NCBI RefSeq assembly: GCF_024494725.1
Contig: NZ_JANHDK010000001.1
Location: forward strand, 868,001-932,000
Origin: Haloplanus ruber
Lineage (GTDB): Archaea > Halobacteriota > Halobacteria > Halobacteriales > Haloferacaceae
Length of the DNA: 64,000 bases
Direction: 5' to 3'
Positions 18,913 to 46,578 of the stretch are shown one piece after another. A program made the translations under genes and the position numbers. Position 1 is the first letter of the stretch; each line of letters opens with the position of its first letter. The notes under the pieces were generated by a model that searched no databases, was not told the DNA's origin, and was given only the letters and a program-made list of their open reading frames with translations.

Positions 18913-18947
18913 ATTCATTGTTGATAATTCCGCCAGTAGAATTATAT
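18913..18947 (+). promoter_or_regulatory. Motility-type dyad plus TATA box of the HalOD1 gene
   Basis: ATTCATTGTTGATAA (18913-18927) contains the core TCA-N4-TGA. Thirteen bases later comes ATTATAT (18941-18947), itself about 26 nt before ATG 18970. The spacer holds CCAGTA, as at cheW2 and the HalX regulator. The same geometry occurs throughout the motility locus. Confidence 0.65.
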
Positions 18948-24211: not shown

Positions 24212-24247
24212 TATCAGACCTGAGAACCCGACGGGCGAACTTATTAC
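24212..24247 (+). promoter_or_regulatory. Motility dyad plus TATA of cheW1
   Basis: TATCAGACCTGAGAA (24212-24226) has the core TCA-N4-TGA and is identical to the site before the DUF7521-like gene. The TATA-like CTTATTAC starts 13-14 bases later. The predicted transcription start is about 24270. Confidence 0.65.
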
Positions 24248-26253: not shown

Positions 26254-26988
26254 ATGACGGACCTGACGCGAACAGGAATCGAGGGGCTGGATTCGATACT
26301 GAGCGGCGGCATCGTCGACAACGCGACGGTACTGATCAGTGGGAACCCGGGCACCGGAAAGAGTATTCTCGGGTTGCAGTACATCTACAACGGCGTGACC
26401 GAGTTCGACGAGAAAGGGATCTATCTCTCGTTCGAGGAAAACGCTGAGGATATCGCCCAAGCGGCCGAATCAATCGGCTTCGAGGACTGGCGAGAACTCG
26501 TCGAGGACGATCAGATCCTCATCTACGACAAACAGGAGCTGTTGCGACACAACGACTTCAACTCGACGCTAGACAGGTTGCTGGCGGCATTCGAGGAAAC
26601 CGAGTACGAACGGCTCGTTCTCGACTCGCTGACGATGTTCGAACTGTTCTTCGAGGACGAACAGGAAAAGCGGACGTATCTGCTGAAGTTCTCGGATATC
26701 CTGAAGGCCAACGGGTTGACGTCGCTGCTCATCGCCGAACAGTCCGCCGTATTCCCGGAACAGGACATCGGCCTCGAGAATTTCCTGACCGACGGGAACA
26801 TCTACCTGATCCAGACCCCGACGGAGTCCGGCGTCAACCGGTATATCTGGGTCGCCAAGATGCGAAAGCAGGACATCGAGACGGACATCTTCCCGATGGA
26901 CATCAACGAGGGTGGCATCACCGTCCACGAGCGTGCGGCGGGCTTCTCGATGATGGGTGGGAGCAACGACTCGTTCCCGGGCGAGTGA
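26254..26988 (+). CDS. KaiC-domain ATPase, RAD55 family
   Basis: 244 aa. It starts MTDLTRTGIEGLDSILSGG, with Walker A ISGNPGTGKSILGLQYIYNG (about residue 31) and Walker B ERLVLDSLTMFELFF (about 122). The end IDINEGGITVHERAAGFSM is the usual terminal strand of single-domain KaiC-like proteins. The start at 26254 agrees with TATTTATT-like sequence at 26218-26226. It is divergent from the other RAD55-like ATPase and converges on the winged-helix regulator. It may act with that regulator as a signalling ATPase; the mechanism is unknown. It has its own promoter without the dyad. Confidence 0.85.
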   Translation: MTDLTRTGIEGLDSILSGGIVDNATVLISGNPGTGKSILGLQYIYNGVTEFDEKGIYLSFEENAEDIAQAAESIGFEDWRELVEDDQILIYDKQELLRHNDFNSTLDRLLAAFEETEYERLVLDSLTMFELFFEDEQEKRTYLLKFSDILKANGLTSLLIAEQSAVFPEQDIGLENFLTDGNIYLIQTPTESGVNRYIWVAKMRKQDIETDIFPMDINEGGITVHERAAGFSMMGGSNDSFPGE

Positions 26989-27324
26989 TCACTCCGAGAG
27001 GGTTCGCCAAGCCTCGTCGAGTCGGTTCGTGACCTGCCGTCGTTCCTCGACATCGACGGAGATGTCCCCCTCGGAGAAGCTCACGACAACCTCCTCGATG
27101 TTCCGACGATAGACGTTGACGCGCCGCCGTTCGTCGGACAGCACTCGGTCGTGGTGTTCGAGGAGGTCCGCGTCGGTGAGCTCTTCGATCCGACGGTAGC
27201 AGGTGGCGATCGGTACGTCGAGTTCGTCGCTGAGCTCCTGGGCCGAGCGTGGCTCGTGTGCGAAACTCAGTATTTGGGGGTTGTACTCGTTGCCCAGAAC
27301 CCGCAACATCTCGGTTCCATCCAT
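26989..27324 (-). CDS. Winged-helix regulator inside the archaellum locus
   Basis: 111 aa. It begins MDGTEMLRVLGNEYNPQIL and has an ArsR-like winged helix: SAQELSDELDVPIATCYRRI as helices 2-3 and LTDADLLEHHDRVLSDERRR as the wing. The C-terminal 40 residues form a short beta/helical dimer region. Its own start is covered by a dyad that differs in one core base from the site before arlCE. It is thus the best local candidate for the factor binding the motility dyads. Winged-helix activators of archaellum genes are known in other Euryarchaeota (EarA in Methanococcus); orthology is not shown here. Confidence 0.88.
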   Translation of the reverse strand: MDGTEMLRVLGNEYNPQILSFAHEPRSAQELSDELDVPIATCYRRIEELTDADLLEHHDRVLSDERRRVNVYRRNIEEVVVSFSEGDISVDVEERRQVTNRLDEAWRTLSE

Positions 27325-27328
27325 TCGT

Positions 27329-27362
27329 TATCAATATAGATACGACCCTGAACAATAAATCG
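27329..27362 (-). promoter_or_regulatory. Dyad over the start of the winged-helix gene
   Basis: Minus strand TATCTATATTGATAA (27342-27328) ends 3 nt before the ATG. It matches the arlCE site TATCAATATTGATAA at 14 of 15 positions. TTTATT-like sequence at about 27360-27354 is the TATA, so here the dyad lies downstream of the TATA at the transcription start. That placement suits repression, unlike all the others. Confidence 0.55.
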
Positions 27363-27403: not shown

Positions 27404-27439
27404 TATCAGACCTGAGAATATCACGATCAGATTTATATC
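27404..27439 (+). promoter_or_regulatory. Motility dyad plus TATA of the small membrane protein
   Basis: TATCAGACCTGAGAA (27404-27418) is followed after 13 bases by TTTATATC (27432-27439). The predicted start is about 27461, some 6 nt before ATG 27467. Confidence 0.65.
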
Positions 27440-27466: not shown

Positions 27467-27748
27467 ATGCTAGTCGTCGAATCCCTCTACTTCGCCGCCA
27501 CGGCGGTGCTGGTGGTCTCCGGGCTGACGATGGTCGGGATGGCAATCAAAGCCTATCTCCAGACGACCCGTCAGGCCATGATCCACGTTTCGCTCGGGTT
27601 TAGTCTGATCGCCGCCGCCGCCATCGCGACCGCGATCAGTGCCTTCATCAACGATTTCAGCGGGGTCCGATCCTTGCTTCTCGTCAACAACGGAATCGCC
27701 TCTCTTGGGTTTATTTTCGTTGTGTACAGTCTCATTATCTACGACTGA
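27467..27748 (+). CDS. Small three-helix membrane protein (DUF7521-like)
   Basis: 93 aa, almost entirely hydrophobic, with three predicted transmembrane helices (about 5-28, 38-60 and 68-90). It resembles the haloarchaeal DUF7521 group of small membrane proteins, often found near winged-helix regulators. No catalytic residues are visible. It lies directly before the archaellin genes and has the same dyad promoter, so it is probably expressed with motility. It could be a membrane partner of the regulator or of the archaellum base; not demonstrated. Confidence 0.8.
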
Positions 27749-27800: not shown

Positions 27801-27834
27801 TTTCACACGTGATATCCGGGGCCGTACCTTTATC
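27801..27834 (+). promoter_or_regulatory. Motility dyad plus TATA of archaellin gene 1
   Basis: TTTCACACGTGATAT (27801-27815) has TCA-N4-TGA, and TTTATC begins 13 bases later at 27829. The element and its spacer share 18 of 24 bases with the archaellin 2 promoter, including GTGATAT and GTACCTTTA. Confidence 0.65.
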
Positions 27835-28678: not shown

Positions 28679-28714
28679 TTTCAATAGTGATATTTTGGAG
28701 TGTACCTTTAATAG
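28679..28714 (+). promoter_or_regulatory. Motility dyad plus TATA of archaellin gene 2
   Basis: TTTCAATAGTGATAT (28679-28693) has TCA-N4-TGA, with TTTAATAG beginning 13 bases later at 28707. The predicted start is near 28734, next to an in-frame GTG at 28733. Confidence 0.65.
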
Positions 28715-30167: not shown

Positions 30168-30202
30168 TATCAGCACTGAGAATCGCGTCCGAGTCTTTAT
30201 TT
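30168..30202 (+). promoter_or_regulatory. Motility dyad plus TATA of cheY-cheC-cheD
   Basis: TATCAGCACTGAGAA (30168-30182) with TCA-N4-TGA is followed after 13 bases by TTTATTT (30196-30202). The predicted start is about 30225, almost leaderless for ATG 30228. Confidence 0.65.
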
Positions 30203-32365: not shown

Positions 32366-32400
32366 TATCAATATTGATAACTGAAGGGGAACGGTTAAAC
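32366..32400 (+). promoter_or_regulatory. Motility dyad plus TATA of the arlCE operon
   Basis: TATCAATATTGATAA (32366-32380) contains the perfect 14-bp palindrome TATCAATATTGATA. GTTAAAC (32394-32400) follows after 13 bases. It is the closest match to the site over the winged-helix gene. Confidence 0.7.
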
Positions 32401-45938: not shown

Positions 45939-45992
45939 AATAAATACACCGGCACGGTTATCACGTAGGATAATCCGACCAGTACGTTTAAC
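45939..45992. promoter_or_regulatory. Shared divergent dyad between cheB and cheW2
   Basis: One site, TTATCACGTAGGATAA (45958-45973), serves both strands. Rightward, 13 bases separate TATCACGTAGGATAA from TTTAAC (45987). Leftward, 13 bases separate TATCCTACGTGATAA from TTTATT (45944-45939). The core has one mismatch (TCA-N4-GGA). CCAGTA lies in the rightward spacer. Confidence 0.65.
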
Positions 45993-46542: not shown

Positions 46543-46578
46543 TATCAACCGAGATAATTCGGCCAGTAGCTACTTGTA
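46543..46578 (+). promoter_or_regulatory. Variant motility dyad before the HalX regulator
   Basis: TATCAACCGAGATAA (46543-46557), core TCA-N4-AGA (one mismatch), then 13 bases and TACTTGTA (46571-46578). CCAGTA lies in the spacer as at cheW2 and HalOD1. The TATA is weak, so this is the least certain of the promoters. Confidence 0.5.

Follow-up and report, generated by a model that had tools for sequence, protein, structure and literature searches.

The window, a 64,000-nt stretch of Haloplanus ruber DNA, contains a small winged-helix gene, csmR. A KaiC-like gene lies on one side of it and a gene for a DUF7521 protein on the other. The central features are as follows.

26254-26988, plus strand: KaiC-like gene, orthologue of cirA (HVO_1212), convergent with csmR and abutting it (Pfam, synteny)
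26989-27324, minus strand: csmR orthologue, encoding a 111-aa winged-helix DNA-binding protein of the Pfam HTH_20 type (ORF, Pfam, similarity, synteny)
27328-27342, minus strand: CsmR-type box in csmR's own promoter, TATCTATATTGATAA, with the core TATCTATATTGATA at 27329-27342, over the predicted transcription start
27354-27359, minus strand: TATA-like element of csmR, TTTATT, kept across the genus (sequence inspection)
27467-27748, plus strand: DUF7521, a 93-aa hydrophobic protein with about three predicted membrane segments, divergent from csmR

The cirA stop codon reaches to 26988 and that of csmR starts at the next base, 26989, so that the two convergent genes meet tail to tail. With the stops abutting (26986-26991) in Haloplanus, read-through would give antisense RNA. 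An RNA overlapping cirA in Haloferax (hvo_1211s) has been reported to stabilise the cirA mRNA.

The 111-aa protein matches HTH_20 in Pfam (E 2e-10). A search of NCBIfam returned no informative family, and no solved relative was found by sequence search. A paper of June 2026 described HVO_1209 of Haloferax volcanii as CsmR, a 13-kDa winged-helix motility regulator adjoining arlA1/arlA2 (PMC13286277). Haloplanus csmR shows 86-96% identity within the genus and about 57-67% to the other clear orthologues, and the csmR of the window is 61% identical to that of ten other Haloferax genomes. Genes for archaellin, CirA and CheY adjoin the clear csmR orthologues, and csmR, archaellins and a cirA-like kaiC recur together in most of the 110 loci. 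In Haloferax the gene order is csmR-arlA1-arlA2-cirA, which agrees with PMC13286277, and a relative of the KaiC-like gene occupies the cirA position. In Haloarculaceae, one strand carries cirA-csmR-DUF7521-archaellin in this order. Because of this orthology to CsmR (HVO_1209) and the published Haloferax volcanii data, the role of the 111-aa gene as the likely regulator is essentially settled. The first-pass annotation had named the winged-helix gene as the likely regulator, and this proposal is well supported by synteny, by similarity and by the match of its box to the CsmR ChIP-seq motif. For the relative in Haloferax volcanii, the identity of the regulator has already been published (2026).

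In the csmR promoter of the window, the plus-strand 15-mer TTATCAATATAGATA at 27328-27342 differs from the arlCE site at 32366-32380 (minus reading TTATCAATATTGATA) at one of 15 positions, and three bases (27325-27327) separate it from the csmR ATG. These findings reproduce what the first-pass annotation had claimed, namely a 14 of 15 match to the arlCE palindrome, 3 nt before the ATG. With up to three mismatches allowed, the 15-mer pattern occurs only at the csmR and arlCE places (four matches over both strands), against 0.05 expected from shuffles. The pattern TATCW-N4-TGATA has only five places in the 3.28-Mb genome. We notice that csmR's own box is asymmetric, with TATCT as its left half. 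The TATA-like element ends 11 nt before the own site, and a start about 25 bp downstream of it would fall inside the site. The position of TTTATT is thus in line with the earlier statement that the site lies on the start instead of upstream of TATA.

Searching the window with up to two mismatches gave 13 boxes, compared with 2.8 expected. The boxes at both archaellin genes, DUF7521, cheY, arlCE, cheW and cheB are each followed, 14-15 bp downstream, by a TATA-like element.

24212-24225, plus strand: CsmR-type box TATCAGACCTGAGA before cheW
27404-27417, plus strand: CsmR-type box TATCAGACCTGAGA, 14 bp upstream of the DUF7521 TATA (27432-27437)
27801-27814, plus strand: CsmR-type box TTTCACACGTGATA, 14 bp upstream of the TATA of archaellin gene 1
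28679-28692, plus strand: CsmR-type box TTTCAATAGTGATA, 14 bp upstream of the TATA of archaellin gene 2
30168-30181, plus strand: CsmR-type box TATCAGCACTGAGA, 14 bp upstream of the cheY TATA
32366-32379, plus strand: perfect palindromic CsmR box TATCAATATTGATA before arlCE
45959-45972, minus strand: CsmR-type box TATCCTACGTGATA, with TATA-like elements on both sides; the one in the cheB direction lies 14 bp downstream of the box

Three boxes with one or two mismatches (45959-45972, 46543-46556 and 18913-18926) have similar spacers with CCAGTA, followed by a TATA-like element.

The same arrangement extends to related genomes, where a box at the activator spacing, 14-15 bp before TATA, is present in 93 of 100 cheY upstream regions and 38 of 48 DUF7521 upstream regions. 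In the 80 named loci, 259 target-like sites have a common layout, which was itself part of their selection. The conserved element among the 244 distinct sites is the TATCA-N4-TGATA dyad and not the TACATA type of EarA. In Haloferax volcanii, the ChIP-seq motif of CsmR is TATCA(N4)TGATA, found in 50 of 65 peaks and near TATA (PMC13286277). The target box agrees with this published motif and extends it to many genera.

The own site is placed differently from the target boxes, and its placement is strictly kept. In all 11 csmR-bearing Haloplanus genomes it reads TATCTNNNNTGATAACGA-ATG and stands at exactly -18. Column conservation in the region upstream of csmR forms two islands, TATA and the own site. 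When the csmR/DUF7521 intergenic regions are aligned, the own box varies only at its centre, and it survives in two genomes without the DUF7521 box. Outside the genus, own boxes at -18 occur in Halegenticoccus (AATCAGTTCTGATA) and in a further genome, G020 (TATCGAACCTGATA), with weaker ones in Halolamina at -18 and Halobium at -17.

In Haloarculaceae, the right half TGATAA is kept just before the csmR ATG and is the only well-kept half of the start-proximal site, while Haloarcula and its relatives have an extra box abutting the csmR TATA, e.g. TATCACAGGCGATAGCTTTAT. At L085, L089, L091 and related loci, this second CsmR-like box (TATCACAGGCGATA) stands about -49 from the csmR ATG, 2 bp from TATA as against 14. 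A box over the start occurs in 17 of the 80 named csmR promoters, one abutting TATA in 19 and both in three, so that 33 of 80 have either; these loci include many close relatives and the counts are not independent, and boxes were accepted from a score of 8 for csmR but from 13 for other genes, which treats csmR more leniently. A box at the activator spacing is found in one of the 80, a weak case, and self-control of csmR from an activator position was rejected as a reading. In Haloferax and Halobellus, the csmR promoters lack a box at both places, over the start and against TATA. This absence in Haloferax is new information from the present analysis.

A site so close to the ATG could also be a start-codon or initiator element, in which the TGATAA just before the ATG serves initiation, or, in mirrored orientation, an activator box of a rightward transcript, an arrangement made conceivable by the TATA 11 nt away on the other side of the box. 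Such readings are highly improbable. TGATAA within 13 nt upstream of the start is found in 51 of 80 csmR genes but in only four of 2497 control ORFs, and a translation or initiator element was set aside as the main reading on this count. Moreover, the distance from box to ATG is fixed, whereas the gap from box to TATA varies between lineages from about 8 to 12 nt, as judged by inspection. A site serving the divergent DUF7521 promoter only was likewise rejected; that promoter carries a separate box 14 bp in front of its TATA, and genomes in which this box is missing still retain the csmR site.

Two Haloplanus genomes provide natural experiments. Genome G004, 99% complete, is without csmR and arlCE, its archaellin gene is broken, and TATCA-N4-TGATA is absent from it. 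Its count of boxes followed by TATA, 10, equals that of the reversed-pattern control (10), and one cheW-type box persists. The archaellin remnant (G004:C1:2099980-2100333) carries two internal stops. Four Haloplanus genomes with csmR and arlCE have box-plus-TATA counts of 23-31 versus 5-8 in the control. Genome G009, 95% complete, retains an intact csmR with its own box and has no archaellin gene or arlCE. Here the own box is the only TATCW-N4-TGATA, and the box-plus-TATA count is 8 versus 6 in the control. An own box kept where the targets are gone is what autoregulation would predict, and G009 is the one genome of this kind.

A paralogue of CsmR, i.e. another HTH_20 protein, could in principle occupy the own site. 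The genome (G000) has 12 CsmR-like matches, csmR included, several of the winged-helix genes are paired with DUF7521, and they could share the box. We consider this very unlikely, for G004 keeps CsmR paralogues and has lost essentially all boxes together with csmR, and the box is the very motif that ChIP gave for CsmR. In the near-complete genomes G009 (L012, L038) and G022 (L015), csmR stands beside a cirA-like neighbour without archaellin genes, which qualifies the statement in PMC13286277 that csmR always co-occurs with archaellin genes. CsmR may have a role beyond motility.

From these comparisons, we propose that CsmR probably binds TATCA(N4)TGATA dyads as a dimer at its targets in Haloplanus, and that the box at its own start provides negative autoregulation. 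At the targets, the dyad would be bound 14-15 bp upstream of TATA, by the TFB recognition element. This position is where archaeal activators usually recruit TFB or TBP. At csmR, the dyad lies downstream of TATA and over the predicted start, where CsmR, once bound, would be expected to obstruct RNA polymerase and so limit its own synthesis. Haloarculaceae may achieve the same through the TATA-abutting box and the half-site before the ATG. In archaea, binding upstream of BRE/TATA usually goes with activation, and binding inside or downstream of the promoter with repression; P. furiosus Lrp keeps polymerase from being recruited to its own gene and thereby represses it, and the mechanism of Phr is similar. 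CsmR very probably turns itself down, although the asymmetry of the own box and, in Haloarculaceae, the good conservation of its right half only count against this. The self-repression put forward in the first-pass annotation thus gains from the position of the site and its strong phylogenetic conservation, and the effect itself stands as a prediction.

The position of the target boxes suggests that CsmR may activate its targets. The sign of its action could also be the opposite, because target transcripts rise in the Haloferax volcanii csmR deletion strain, in a genus without the own site. This strain is non-motile and has no archaella, yet its arl and che transcripts are raised, and overexpression of CsmR leads to hypermotility (PMC13286277). 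CsmR might therefore bind its own start but repress generally, or act with either sign depending on CirA, with target boxes that are possibly repressive too, so that the contrast between activated targets and a silenced own gene would be wrong. The directly bound genes are those rising most in the deletion strain, as this reading would have it. The loss of archaella in the deletion strain, the hypermotility on overexpression and boxes upstream of BRE/TATA, the usual activator position, argue against it, and we regard it as unlikely. Even so, it would leave self-repression standing.

Self-repression of csmR is absent from the main text of PMC13286277, which reports that csmR transcripts in Haloferax are stable across growth. 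This stability is compatible with a lack of self-control there but is no proof of it. Since the own site is missing from Haloferax, work on this model organism could not have revealed the self-control circuit that is likely in Haloplanus. With the box upstream of TATA at the targets and downstream at csmR itself, the Haloplanus and Haloarcula promoters form an internal test of activation against repression, a question left open by the Haloferax paper (PMC13286277). Our comparison also extends CsmR well beyond Haloferax, with a precise common promoter grammar in which the box stands 14-15 bp before TATA.

Meanwhile, the DUF7521 gene next to csmR has counterparts elsewhere. We took 20 DUF7521 loci outside the csmR loci from the window genome and related genomes (L137-L156, the best-scoring family matches), and in 20 of 20 a CsmR-like winged-helix gene lies directly upstream of DUF7521. 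We found no literature on DUF7521. It is a reasonable idea that DUF7521 may be a membrane partner controlling the winged-helix protein. More tentatively, we speculate that CsmR and DUF7521 could form a widespread haloarchaeal two-gene module, in which DUF7521 in the membrane holds or releases the winged-helix protein and CsmR switches DUF7521 on through an activator box and itself off through the box at its start; Haloferax would then be derived, without the adjacent partner or the self-control.

An AlphaFold2 model of CsmR (pLDDT 88) consists of helices, wing strands and a C-terminal helix, and its best fold matches are Phr (PDB 2P4W) and ArsR-type proteins. The Lrp/AsnC family has been proposed as the placement of CsmR (PMC13286277). 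In the 111-aa protein, Pfam gave no match at E <= 0.01 to an AsnC/RAM ligand-binding domain after the HTH, and the best fold matches listed for the model include no Lrp/AsnC chain; CsmR may nonetheless belong to that family.

CsmR of Haloferax volcanii (HVO_1209) shares with the Haloplanus protein its nature as a small winged-helix protein encoded beside archaellin genes with cirA close by, and arl and che promoters with TATCA(N4)TGATA ahead of BRE/TATA. The ten Haloferax genomes differ in that csmR has no box over its start or against TATA and no adjacent DUF7521, whereas Haloplanus has both. Phr of P. furiosus is the closest solved fold (2P4W; VIA Z 12.3 over 102 residues, rmsd 4.9, 22% identity) and a repressor reported to act like Lrp by blocking polymerase recruitment. 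However, Phr is a 198-residue chain that acts on heat-shock genes, whereas for CsmR there are boxes in activator positions as well. In Methanococcus maripaludis and Pyrococcus furiosus, EarA is also a winged-helix archaellum regulator with a site at a fixed distance upstream of BRE, but its motif is TACATA, and according to the CsmR authors the two proteins are similar in neither sequence nor structure (PMC13286277). TrmBL1/Tgr of the Thermococcales belongs to the sugar-sensing TrmB family and has another motif and regulon. Like the circuit proposed here, it is a single factor with activation from sites upstream of BRE/TATA and repression from sites downstream, and autoregulation has been proposed for Tgr.
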